Shown piece by piece: positions 13,342 to 27,079 of a DNA stretch of 48,950 nt (positions within the stretch are counted from its first letter, which is position 1; each line of letters opens with the position of its first letter). Where the stretch lies: NCBI GenBank assembly GCA_016882525.1, contig VGPU01000013.1, positions 1-48,950 on the forward strand. The letters run 5' to 3'. A model generated the notes under the pieces. The model did not search any database. It was given only the letters and a program-made list of their open reading frames with translations, and was not told where the DNA came from. Both the position numbers and the translations under genes were made by a program. This DNA comes from Cyanobacteria bacterium M_surface_10_m2_119. GTDB lineage: Bacteria > Cyanobacteriota > Cyanobacteriia > PCC-6307 > Cyanobiaceae.

Positions 13342-14339
13342 CAGAGCGTGGGCTCCTCCAGGGCGTGGCTGTGGGCGGGGTTCCAGCGGCACCAGAGCTC
13401 CGATCCCACGCGCAGATTGTTGGGCAGATTGGCGCTGGTGTCGATGGCGATCAGGGGTCGATCACAGCGGCTGCGCAGGCGCACCTCCACGGTGGCGCCC
13501 TGGAACACCAGCTCCTCCACCCGCGCCTGCAGCCCCCGCTCACCTTCGCCCGGCGGCTCGGGCCCCAGCCGCAGCCGCTCCGGCCGCAGCAGCCGCTGCC
13601 CGGCGCCGGAGGGCTCCGGCAGCAGGTTGGCGGAGCCCAGGAAGGTGGCCACCACGGCGCTGCGGGGCTGCTCGTAGAGCTGCCGGGGCGTGCCCACCTG
13701 CTCGAGGCGGCCGCGGTTCAGCACCGCCAGCCGGTCGCTGAGGCTGAGGGCCTCCTCGCGGTCGTGGGTGACGAGCACGAAGGTGATGCCCACCTCCCGC
13801 TGGATGGCCTGCAGCTCCCGCCGCATCGTGCGCCGCAGATCCGGATCGAGGGCGGCGAGCGGTTCATCGAGCAGCACCGCCGCCGGGGCGTTCACCAGCG
13901 CCCGCGCCAGGGCCACCCGCTGCTGCTGCCCCCCCGAGAGCTGGTGGGGGCGGCGGCGCGCCAGCTCCGGGAGCCGCACCACCTCCAGGGCTTCCCCCAC
14001 CCGCCGGCGCAGCTCGGCGTCCGCCATCCGCCGGGAGCGGGGCCCGAAGGCCACGTTGTCCCACACGCTGAGGTGGGGGAAGAGGGCGTAGTTCTGGAAC
14101 ACCAGGTTCACCGGCCGCCGGTGCGGCGGCGCCTCGGTGAGGTCGCGGCCCTGCAGCAGGATCCGCCCGCTCTGGGGGCGATCGAAGCCGGCGATCAGCC
14201 GCAGGGTGGTGGTTTTGCCGCAGCCGGAGGGGCCCAGCAGGGAAAAGAACTCCCCCGCCCCGATCGAGAGGGTCAGGGGCTCCAGGGCGGTGAGGCTGCC
14301 GTAGCGGCGGCTCACCTCCTGCAGGGCGATCACATCCAT
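13341..14339 (-). CDS. potA: Polyamine-type ABC transporter ATP-binding protein PotA
   Basis: A 332-residue ATPase that powers the potBC permease. Walker A (LLGPSGCGKTTTLRL), the Q-loop FQNYALFPHL, signature LSGGQQQRVALARAL, Walker B with DEPLAALD and the switch histidine in LVTHDREEAL are all intact. A C-terminal TOBE-like domain follows (about residues 240-332). The ATG at 14339 was chosen by alignment with the family start DVIALQEVSRRYG; upstream codons in this frame are non-homologous. It is first in the operon, so the promoter should lie in 14,340-14,427, the gap shared with the truncated amine oxidase. Confidence 0.93.
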   Translation of the reverse strand: MDVIALQEVSRRYGSLTALEPLTLSIGAGEFFSLLGPSGCGKTTTLRLIAGFDRPQSGRILLQGRDLTEAPPHRRPVNLVFQNYALFPHLSVWDNVAFGPRSRRMADAELRRRVGEALEVVRLPELARRRPHQLSGGQQQRVALARALVNAPAAVLLDEPLAALDPDLRRTMRRELQAIQREVGITFVLVTHDREEALSLSDRLAVLNRGRLEQVGTPRQLYEQPRSAVVATFLGSANLLPEPSGAGQRLLRPERLRLGPEPPGEGERGLQARVEELVFQGATVEVRLRSRCDRPLIAIDTSANLPNNLRVGSELWCRWNPAHSHALEEPTL

Positions 14340-14427
14340 GGGGCCCTGTTTAGCAATACTTGCCGGGGGACGAGGGTCCAGGTGGAACTTGCCAGGATCC
14401 GCTGGAACGGCTGCAGGTCTGGAGCGC

Positions 14428-14661
14428 ATGGAAGCCGATGTGGCGGTGGTGGGCGCCGGCCTCTCCGGCCTGGTGTGTGCCCGGGAACTGATCCGCCGGG
14501 GGCTGCGGGTGCAGGTGCTGGAGGCCCGCGAGCGCTGGGGCGGGCGGATGCACGGCCACCGCACCGCCTGCGGCCTCACCGTGGACCTGGGGGGCCAGTG
14601 GGTGGGCGCCACCCACCACCGCCTGCGGGCGCTGCTGTCTTGCTTGCTGAGGACGAACTGA
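14428..14661 (+). pseudogene. Truncated flavin amine oxidase (N-terminal fragment)
   Basis: The frame encodes 77 residues. The first 70 are the FAD-binding start of a bacterial flavin monoamine/polyamine oxidase: DVAVVGAGLSGLVCARELI is the dinucleotide-binding GxGxxG, VLEARERWGGRM the FAD ribose/GG motif, and VDLGGQWVGATHHRLRALL the next conserved segment. Full-length enzymes have about 450 residues. Homology stops near 14,636 and the frame ends after seven unrelated residues at the border of the less G+C-rich islet. No continuation is found to the right, so this looks like a deletion or replacement, not a simple insertion. It is divergent from potA, suggesting a former polyamine-related enzyme. 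Confidence 0.8.
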
Positions 14662-14804
14662 CCACCCGCCTGACCCTGTTGGCACTGGAGGCGGTTGGTG
14701 ACCCTCAGGTGACCTCAGGGGTGCTGAACCTCCTGGAAGACCTGTCGCCACTGGTGGAGATGTGCGAAGAGGCGGTGGGTCTGACGGTTCCTTGTGGGTC
14801 GTAG
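14640..14804 (+). other. Short open frame of unknown origin at the islet border
   Basis: From the amine-oxidase breakpoint one frame reads ELTTRLTLLALEAVGDPQVT, then a segment ending NLLEDLSPLVEMCEEAVG before a TAG. It could start at TTG 14640 (54 residues). The composition (acidic, helix-like, Leu-rich) looks more like coding sequence than chance, but I recognise no family. It may be the tail of a gene whose start was lost with the rest of the amine oxidase, or a small gene with a weak start. Confidence 0.3.
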
Positions 14805-14813
14805 GAGGTAGTG

Positions 14814-14828
14814 GCGCAACCATTGCGC
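14814..14828 (-). terminator. Possible terminator hairpin
   Basis: A 6-bp perfect stem GCGCAA/TTGCGC with a 3-base loop lies two bases beyond the stop of the minus-strand gene at 14831. No T-run follows in the minus direction, so its role as terminator is uncertain. Confidence 0.3.
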
Positions 14829-14830
14829 TT

Positions 14831-15049
14831 CTAACACCCTTTGTCGCTGCGATTGGAGTTGTTGACTTCCTTAGATTGCTCTTGGCGATTTCTCCACTGC
14901 CTTCTTTCTTCTTGCCCGAGCACGACAGTTTCCATCGTCACCCACGACCCAAATGCCAGGGCAATCATCCCCGTGCTGCCCTTCACCGCCCCTATGAGCA
15001 TCAGTAGAACTGCCGTGGCAACCCCAGCAATCTGAATTGGACTGCTCAT
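14831..15049 (-). CDS. Small membrane protein of unknown function
   Basis: A 72-residue product: a hydrophobic N-terminal half (IQIAGVATAVLLMLIGAVKG and MIALAFGSWVTMETVVL, one long or two short membrane segments) followed by a hydrophilic, charged tail rich in R, Q, E and N. No family is recognised. The ATG at 15049 is preceded by GAGG at a spacing of eight bases; an open frame continues 57 codons upstream but looks non-coding. It is the last of three minus-strand genes of the islet, 140 bases after the preceding one; that gap holds nothing I recognise. Confidence 0.5.
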   Translation of the reverse strand: MSSPIQIAGVATAVLLMLIGAVKGSTGMIALAFGSWVTMETVVLGQEERRQWRNRQEQSKEVNNSNRSDKGC

Positions 15050-15189
15050 CTGAATCGCCTCAATCCTTGAGTTCTTATGAGCTCTTTGAATTCTGGCGAA
15101 TCTCCTCGTTGCCTGTCGCTTTATGGAGAAAACGCATATCCCAGTTTCTTGCCTAGTCGTCTTCTTCCCCTGCTGCGGCACTATGCCTT

Positions 15190-15372
15190 TTACCTTTTGC
15201 CTTCCTTGTCCCCTCTCCAAATCTTCTCCAGCGACCTCCTGAACTCCCTCTCACTCAGCGGTCTTGCCAGATCTCGCTTCCTGAGAGTGCTGCCGATCCA
15301 CCACACCTGAAGACCTCCAAAGGCAAGAGCGACCAGACCCAGTTGGAGGTATCCCCAGTTCAGGTGCTCCAT
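15190..15372 (-). CDS. Small single-span membrane protein of unknown function
   Basis: A 60-residue product with one membrane segment near the N terminus (LQLGLVALAFGGLQVWWIG) and a strongly charged C-terminal tail (RKRDLARPLSEREF, then basic residues to the end). The ATG at 15372 overlaps the stop of the upstream Cys/His-protein gene as ATGA, arguing for a real, translationally coupled gene. I recognise no family. Small basic-tailed membrane proteins of this shape include SOS-induced division inhibitors and toxins in other bacteria, but that is only an analogy. Confidence 0.55.
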   Translation of the reverse strand: MEHLNWGYLQLGLVALAFGGLQVWWIGSTLRKRDLARPLSEREFRRSLEKIWRGDKEGKR

Positions 15373-15683
15373 CACGCTGCCTGCTGCGCTTTCTGACACC
15401 GCTTGGACTGCTGGTGTTGCTTGAACGCCCACTGGGTTCCCTTGATGACCTGTCCGCAGTGCTCGCAGGTCGTTGAGGGTGCTCTGCGAATCCAGTTCTC
15501 AGGGCGCTCCCCGACTAGTTCCCGCCTTGACGGATCAATGCCTCTTCCCTGCTGGTATCTGGACAGGGCAGGAGCGGTGGTGACGAACCCTGTCTCCAGA
15601 CAGCGGAACAGGAGGGTCTGACCCCGCAGGTTCTGGGTGTTGTAGGCGGCGTGAGTCATCTCATCTTGCTCGACCCTGCCCAT
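15372..15683 (-). CDS. Small Cys/His (zinc-finger-like) protein
   Basis: A 103-residue protein. Its first part has the pattern LLFRCLETGFVTTAPALSRY with QQGRGID after it, which I recall in short uncharacterised picocyanobacterial proteins. The C-terminal part CEHCGQVIKGTQWAFKQHQ plus a following Cys gives a C-x2-C...H-x5-C arrangement able to bind zinc. It may bind nucleic acid, but nothing proves this. ATG 15683 has GAGG nine bases upstream; ATG 15659 is an alternative. It is first in the minus-strand islet operon, downstream of the palindrome at 15747. Confidence 0.6.
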   Translation of the reverse strand: MGRVEQDEMTHAAYNTQNLRGQTLLFRCLETGFVTTAPALSRYQQGRGIDPSRRELVGERPENWIRRAPSTTCEHCGQVIKGTQWAFKQHQQSKRCQKAQQAA

Positions 15684-15746
15684 AGTGGCAACCCTCAGGG
15701 TGGAACGCTACAGGCAGCGTTGCTTGACCCTCTTGACCGATGCGAA

Positions 15747-15762
15747 TAATACAGGTGTATTA
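15747..15762. promoter_or_regulatory. LexA-like operator palindrome between divergent genes
   Basis: TAATACA-GG-TGTATTA is a perfect 7+7 bp palindrome in the 90-bp gap between the divergent starts at 15683 (minus) and 15774 (plus). Its core ATACA-x2-TGTAT is the same as in the palindrome just upstream of lexA (27066). Cyanobacterial LexA sites are known as TAC-x(6)-GTA-type palindromes, so LexA control of both islet transcripts is a reasonable inference. Another repressor with a similar site cannot be excluded. Confidence 0.6.
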
Positions 15763-15773
15763 GCGCTTTTCCT

Positions 15774-16043
15774 GTGACATCTGCCCGCCCCTCCTCCTCT
15801 GCTGCCCTCTCCCCTGAAGAGTGGGACTACTTGGAGTGGGATGTCCTCAAACCCTCCCGCTCCAGTGCCGTCTGTATCACCTGTCAGCACTTCCGCTATG
15901 AGGTCGGCAGGCACTGCGTCACCTTGCTGACCTGTCCGATTCATCAGGGTCTAATTCCCCAGGGAGAGCACCTGACCAAGCGGTGCTCACAGTGGGTGGG
16001 GCGGAAGGAGTTGGCGGTTGGGTGGTGTCCTGAGGGTGGGTGA
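15774..16043 (+). CDS. Small Cys-rich protein of unknown function
   Basis: An 89-residue product. Four cysteines and two histidines are arranged as CITCQHF...LLTCPIHQGLIPQGEHL...RCSQW, a pattern I recall from short hypothetical proteins that occur in several copies in marine Synechococcus. A zinc-ribbon-like fold is likely; no catalytic motif or membrane segment is visible. Translation probably begins at GTG 15774, only 11 bases after the LexA-like palindrome, so a leader would be very short. The downstream gap to pdhC (16044-16229) holds only a candidate promoter. Confidence 0.55.
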   Translation: MTSARPSSSAALSPEEWDYLEWDVLKPSRSSAVCITCQHFRYEVGRHCVTLLTCPIHQGLIPQGEHLTKRCSQWVGRKELAVGWCPEGG

Positions 16044-16104
16044 GGTGGTTTCGTCCTTCTGGTGGCGGTCCTCAATCGACCGACTCTCCCCGTGGTGACT
16101 GGGG

Positions 16105-26397: not shown

Positions 26398-27048
26398 TTA
26401 CACCGCAGCCTGTCCTCCTCTCACCTGCCGCCAGACGGCGACCAGCTGGCCCTGCACGGTGACCTGGTCAGCCGGCAGCACAATGGGTTCGTAGGCCGGG
26501 TTGGCGGCTTCCAGGGTGACGCGGTTGCCCGTGCGGAAGAAGTGCTTGAGGGTGGTGCCGCTACCGGGCACCAGCGCGCTCACGATCGTGCCGGGGCGCA
26601 GCCGGGAAGGGTTTGACACCGGTTCCATGAGCACCATGTCGCCATCAGCGATGTGGGCGTCCACCATCGAGTCCCCATGCACGGTGAGGGCAAACAGCCC
26701 CCGTCGCTCAAGCAGGGTGGAGAAGTCGAGGTGCTCCTGGACGTCATCGAAGGTCTCGACCAGGCCGCCGGCCGCCACCACGCCCAGGACGGGCACACCC
26801 GGATTCAGCTCCCCCAGAAGCTGAAGGGTGCGCGCCTGGCCCTCCTGCCAGGTGAGCCAGCCCTTTTGCTGCAGGTGCCGGAGCCGGCTCTGGATCGGGG
26901 CTGGCGAGCGCAGTCCCATCGCCTCCATCATCTGGCGGATGGAGGGGCTGTGGCGGTGTTCGCCGATGTAGGCGGTCAGCCAGTCGTAGAGCTCCTGCTG
27001 GGCGGGGGTGAGCTCGGCCTGCTTGGAGTGGGAGATGGGAGCCGGCAA
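26398..27048 (-). CDS. lexA: LexA repressor (SOS regulator, S24 peptidase)
   Basis: A 216-residue repressor with an N-terminal winged-helix domain (residues 13-75, LTPAQQELYDWL...SPSIRQMMEAMGLRSPAPIQ) and a C-terminal S24 latent protease. The self-cleavage bond A93-G94 (GVVAAGGLVE), nucleophile S127 (VHGDSMVDAHI) and general base K168 (GTTLKHFF) are all present, so RecA-stimulated autocleavage should be possible, unlike in some cyanobacterial LexA proteins. The only sensible in-frame start is TTG 27048; the upstream frame is non-homologous and contains the operator. The palindrome at 27066 suggests autoregulation. argF lies upstream on the same strand. Confidence 0.93.
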   Translation of the reverse strand: MPAPISHSKQAELTPAQQELYDWLTAYIGEHRHSPSIRQMMEAMGLRSPAPIQSRLRHLQQKGWLTWQEGQARTLQLLGELNPGVPVLGVVAAGGLVETFDDVQEHLDFSTLLERRGLFALTVHGDSMVDAHIADGDMVLMEPVSNPSRLRPGTIVSALVPGSGTTLKHFFRTGNRVTLEAANPAYEPIVLPADQVTVQGQLVAVWRQVRGGQAAV

Positions 27049-27065: not shown

Positions 27066-27079
27066 GATACAGATGTATC
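27066..27079. promoter_or_regulatory. LexA operator upstream of lexA
   Basis: GATACA-GA-TGTATC is a perfect 6+6 bp palindrome, 17 bases before the lexA start. It has the TACA-x2-TGTA core of cyanobacterial LexA boxes and sits where an autoregulatory site would be. The same core occurs at 15747. Confidence 0.75.

Follow-up and report, generated by a model that had tools for sequence, protein, structure and literature searches.

A small four-cysteine protein family of picocyanobacteria very probably belongs to the LexA regulon, as indicated by conserved operator-like palindromes

We analyzed a 48,950-nucleotide stretch (the window) of the genome of Cyanobacteria bacterium M_surface_10_m2_119, a member of the Cyanobiaceae, in which two palindromes share the same core. 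We consider it highly likely from the sequence that both are operators of the organism's own LexA, and that the small gene beside the first is one member of a family that spans the clade, often in several copies per genome, and regularly forms part of the SOS regulon. The LexA regulon and the type of box are known; the apparent novelty is that a family of small proteins found across the clade regularly belongs to the SOS response, with a plausible connection to the reaction to phage. Few photosynthetic organisms are as abundant as Prochlorococcus and marine Synechococcus, and to our knowledge lexA, recA and umuDC account for most of what has been learned about their SOS response. A family that has no Pfam or NCBIfam model, is nearly always preceded by a box and occurs in about 90% of the clade's near-complete genomes is a strong candidate for a protein at the core of the damage response.

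Both palindromes are present where the original prediction had placed them, TAATACA-GG-TGTATTA at 15747-15762 and GATACA-GA-TGTATC at 27066-27079, and in each the arms (7 and 6 bp) match perfectly and flank a central dinucleotide that is itself non-palindromic. Their common core, ATACAnnTGTAT, is found at these two places only in the entire genome of 2.62 Mb. The pattern ATACANNTGTAT matched twice in the window, where shuffled sequences gave an expectation of 0.00, and twice genome-wide, where a reversed control pattern gave 0 matches. A LexA matrix was made from 48 sites published by Li et al. 2010 (PMC3091678), none of them from this genome, and was used to scan the window; the genome-wide scan was done by pattern matching. 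At 9 bits or more the matrix returned exactly two sites in the window, 15748-15761 (17.2 bits) and 27066-27079 (13.5 bits), and in 60 shuffles none reached 13 bits. Both sites fit the published picocyanobacterial LexA box, TAGTACA-N2-TGTACTA / AGTACWNWTGTACT (PMC2921402, PMC3091678, PMC3744912), within its published variation. On the other side, scanning for promoters gave no sigma-70 consensus at the 15748 site. We regard the two palindromes as putative, and very probable, DNA-damage (LexA) switch sites. Coordinates of these and other features are collected in Table 1.

Table 1. Positions of the putative LexA boxes and associated genes. Positions without a prefix are those of the window, except in the G129 rows, where they are those of G129.
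Feature	Position	Strand	Remarks
Putative LexA box AATACAGGTGTATT	15748..15761		part of the 16-bp palindrome 15747-15762; GTG of the small gene 12 bp downstream; same position as the boxes of homologues
Small gene	15774..16043	+	GTG start; 89 aa; CxxC-x16-C-x16-C and GEHLT motif; uncharacterized picocyanobacterial family
Divergent small gene	15372..15659	-	95 aa; CxxC...HxxxxxC at the C-terminus; box in the region between it and the small gene
lexA	26398..27048	-	LexA_DNA_bind and Peptidase_S24; likely TTG start (27048)
Putative LexA box GATACAGATGTATC	27066..27079		before lexA; predicted autoregulatory site
recA, box	C8:31064		at most one mismatch to DRTACANNTGTAYH
dprA, box	C56:15022		at most one mismatch to DRTACANNTGTAYH
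Epimerase-like gene, box GATACAGGTGTACT	C26:10621 (L030:2022)		41 bp upstream of the gene
Small gene, box	C38:2775		paralogue of ORF 15774-16043
Small gene, box	C109:257		paralogue of ORF 15774-16043
G129 operon, DUF1651 ORF (PMM0684)	652944		successive overlaps of a few bases or less along the operon
G129 operon, 45-aa ORF			between the DUF1651 ORF and the family copy
G129 operon, family copy	653377		last of the three

The product of lexA matched both PF01726 and PF00717 of Pfam and, when aligned to solved LexA chains, retained the Ala-Gly cleavage bond as well as the catalytic Ser and Lys. The second palindrome stands 17 bp upstream of the likely start codon, and the relatives of the same taxonomic family that were examined have GGTACATCTGTATC or a variant of it at the equivalent place before lexA. 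The form found in the window, GATACATCTGTATC, is one base off the commonest form in its own genus. Because the 27066 box is orthologous to one conserved before lexA across the taxonomic family, the proposal that it is the lexA autoregulatory site is borne out.

The gene next to the first palindrome encodes a protein for which no fitting match was found in Pfam, NCBIfam, PHROGs or PADLOC. Alignments of its homologues have an invariant CxxC, third Cys, GxHL and fourth Cys, and the window ORF is intact with every family motif residue retained. We found the family in 182 of 200 near-complete picocyanobacterial genomes of the same taxonomic family, and a single genome had as many as 13 matches when fragments are counted. 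Among 60 relatives, the only match outside that taxonomic family was weak and contained stops, and no phage homologue of the four-cysteine family was found.

A box of at least 12 bits precedes 71 of the 77 named family loci that have enough upstream sequence, as compared with 3.0% of 2,257 background windows taken from the same loci. When the members were reduced to a non-redundant set (57 members, <82% mutual identity), 51 had the box, and its distance to the start codon fell into two main groups of 6-18 and 85-97 bp. Mean column identity in this set was 0.79 for the box, a value somewhat inflated by choosing the best-scoring site, and 0.34 and 0.28 for the 30-bp flanks. Since the box columns are far more identical than the flanks and chance sites in the background rarely reach 12 bits, the box itself is under selection. 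The few copies with no box within 250 bp include some that are degenerate and some that lie downstream in a boxed operon, such as certain high-light Prochlorococcus copies found downstream of a DUF1651 gene that has the box. It could be argued that a regulator other than LexA recognizes a similar palindrome before the family genes, as some copies belong to genomic islands, regions that react to more than one kind of stress (PMC3744912, PMC2518516). We find this highly improbable, however, as a single matrix covers the promoters of lexA, umuDC and the family, and the sites vary in the way published LexA sites do, so that a second regulator is unneeded.

The 15748 box does depart from the usual form at one pair of positions, 2 and 13, where it has A/T and not G/C; among the family boxes this form is rare (1 of 51). 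The islet in which it lies (14650-16050) has a GC content of 53-60%, as compared with at least 70% around it, and cuts off an amine-oxidase-like gene. These features would suit a decayed leftover, in which the islet is a recent foreign insert and the box has been inactivated by G-to-A and C-to-T changes. We think this improbable, since both changes are symmetrical and the palindrome is therefore intact, the lexA box of the same genome has the same A/T pair, and neither the reading frame nor the motif of the small gene has been lost.

Returning to LexA operators as the preferred reading, we hypothesize that LexA bound at 15748, just before the start codon, would block transcription of the small gene. 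DNA damage would then lead to RecA-stimulated self-cleavage of LexA and release of this site, while the 27066 box would place lexA under the control of its own product. LexA binding, repression and damage induction at these sites are what we infer from the sequences, and we speculate that the small protein acts in response to damaged or phage-attacked DNA.

The original prediction had suggested that the genes on both sides of the first palindrome may be damage-inducible. For the right-hand gene this holds to the extent that 15748 is very probably a LexA operator, judging by the box kept before the family across the clade, while the case for its divergent partner is much weaker. LexA control of the partner through the same site is possible, with 88 bp separating the site from the ATG at 15659 and about 64 bp from a longer alternative ATG at 15683. 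A bidirectional operator would make the islet a two-gene SOS module, and several freshwater loci do have the partner next to the family gene in divergent orientation. Only in the window, L209 and L219 is there a strong box within about 270 bp of the partner, and L203 has a weak one. We nevertheless find bidirectional control doubtful, as in L220, L222 and L224 the partner is remote from the box of the family gene and lacks a strong one itself, no strong box occurs within 700 bp of the partner's homologue in G002 (L294), and the window box stands directly before the start of the right-hand gene only. The amine-oxidase-like gene adjoining the islet (ORF 14338-14661, 107 aa) ends after its N-terminal part, and the small ORFs 14831-15220, 15190-15432 and 15372-15659 of the islet, all on the minus strand, have no known family.

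Scanning the genome for further boxes had been proposed along with the original prediction, and boxes were indeed located before recA, umuDC and dprA as well. Patterns allowing one mismatch to DRTACANNTGTAYH placed those of recA, dprA, the epimerase-like gene and the two small genes of C38 and C109 (Table 1). The umuDC box, AGTACAGGCATACT, is weaker and lies on the operon's own strand (13.0 bits). Both other full copies of the four-cysteine family in this genome (C38 and C109) carry AGTACAGGTGTACG. The boxed epimerase-like gene of C26 is possibly of the cyanobacterial 'sulA' type. The other one-mismatch matches had no clear placement, and their number was near that obtained with the control pattern. 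Two perfect boxes were also seen, neither with an evident known target. One, AGTACACCTGTACT at L028:2034 (C1:183933), lies about 200 bp after recQ between convergent genes; we found no gene at this locus that it could control, and an unannotated small RNA or peptide there is possible. The other, AGTACAGCTGTACT at L032:2067 (C77:2067), is about 35 bp before the gene of a 170-aa hypothetical protein that has a hydrophobic stretch and a similar neighbor copy upstream.

The suggestion that these sites define a previously undescribed LexA regulon is not supported, as the picocyanobacterial regulon and its box have already been published (PMC2921402, PMC3091678, PMC3744912). The window genome agrees with that regulon in operator type, regulator and the known members lexA, recA and umuDC, and dprA has been suggested as a member in WH7803 (PMC7393227). 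It differs in having a small four-cysteine family behind boxes, which the main texts consulted do not name as a member.

We also looked at what the small protein might be. A first AlphaFold model, with the window protein as first sequence, was too poor (pLDDT 64.8), and a search of the PDB with it gave no matches. With a second, better model (pLDDT 86.9), Foldseek gave no match under E 0.001, and neither did BFVD. When the Foldseek candidates were realigned, high-potential iron-sulfur proteins (HiPIPs) and small subunits of benzylsuccinate synthase were listed with Z scores of 2.8 to 4.2, values that can arise by chance, and none reached 5. The similarity of fold is thus weak at best, and it comes with a CxxC...C...C order of four cysteines; the x16-x16 cysteine spacing of the family differs from that of the HiPIP chains aligned. 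Among 45 family members there was no Pfam match to HIPIP (PF01355) at E <=10, profile comparison with HiPIP was not significant (hhalign probability about 1%), and in the profile test 6 of 100 shuffles with the cysteines fixed did equally well. The HiPIP-like fold matches and the four-cysteine pattern together give a hint of an iron-sulfur protein, and on this weak evidence the family may have a HiPIP-like fold. We speculate that the small protein could bind a metal or a [4Fe-4S] cluster on such a fold, and binding of zinc by the four cysteines is equally possible.

A connection to phage infection comes from Prochlorococcus. We take genome G129 to be MED4, because the positions of its 6S and Cyano-1 RNAs agree with those published for yfr7 and yfr3 of MED4 (PMC1242208). 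In G129, the box AGTACACCTGTATT at 652922 heads a tight operon in which a family copy follows a DUF1651 gene (Table 1), and gene order indicates that this copy is probably PMM0685. PMM0684 and PMM0685 are reported to be host genes induced by phage in a second wave (Steglich et al. 2008, PMC2518516), and Fedida and Lindell 2017 (PMC5490813) report PMM0684 among the DUF1651 genes that respond to phage. Three of the six DUF1651 genes in the genome taken as MED4 have LexA boxes, namely PMM0684 and two others with strong boxes, of which the one at 774489 is probably PMM0819 by interpolation. A subset of high-light Prochlorococcus DUF1651 genes (L295, L316, L317, L318 and L320) has LexA boxes about 70-80 bp before the domain.

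Of these boxed DUF1651 genes, PMM0684 is the one that shares a tight operon with a family copy. DUF1651 is a protein family distinct from the four-cysteine family, and the small gene of the window has no Pfam match to it (PF07864). DUF1651 was matched only by neighbors of other copies (C38, C109 and the genome taken as MED4); the window copy has no such neighbor, and the pairing was seen for 7 of 86 copies, so it is not general. There is no mention of LexA in PMC5490813, which leaves the cause of induction open ('Perhaps it is a stress response gene'), and the passages of PMC2518516 consulted contain no SOS link. Under an SOS reading, the induction of some genomic-island genes by infecting phage would have a simple and testable explanation. 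We tentatively propose a clade-specific SOS arm, made up of a near-universal small metal- or [4Fe-4S]-binding, HiPIP-like protein and a subset of DUF1651 proteins behind LexA boxes, in which the phage 'host-response' genes PMM0684, PMM0685 and probably PMM0819 would be SOS genes switched on by damage that the phage inflicts on DNA.

In the 2,606,748-bp genome that we take to be CC9311, a boxed family copy lies 12.5 kb from umuC. Mitomycin induction has been reported for sync1608-1613, 1615 and 1620-1623 (Tetu et al. 2013, PMC3744912), and this copy falls within the interval of mitomycin-induced unknown genes of that study. We consider the ties of the family to published expression, in MED4 with phage and in CC9311 with mitomycin, to be suggestive. 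SYNW1405/sync1474, another mitomycin-induced unknown of Tetu et al., was considered as a possible member and rejected, as no copy was found near the rough expected position of sync1474 in the same genome.

The gene PMM0686 is also reported to be phage-induced (PMC2518516). The ORF L295:4613-4792, which is PMM0686 by order, matched the ClpS adaptor family below threshold (E 3e-4), and PMM0686 is the most phage-induced host mRNA of MED4.
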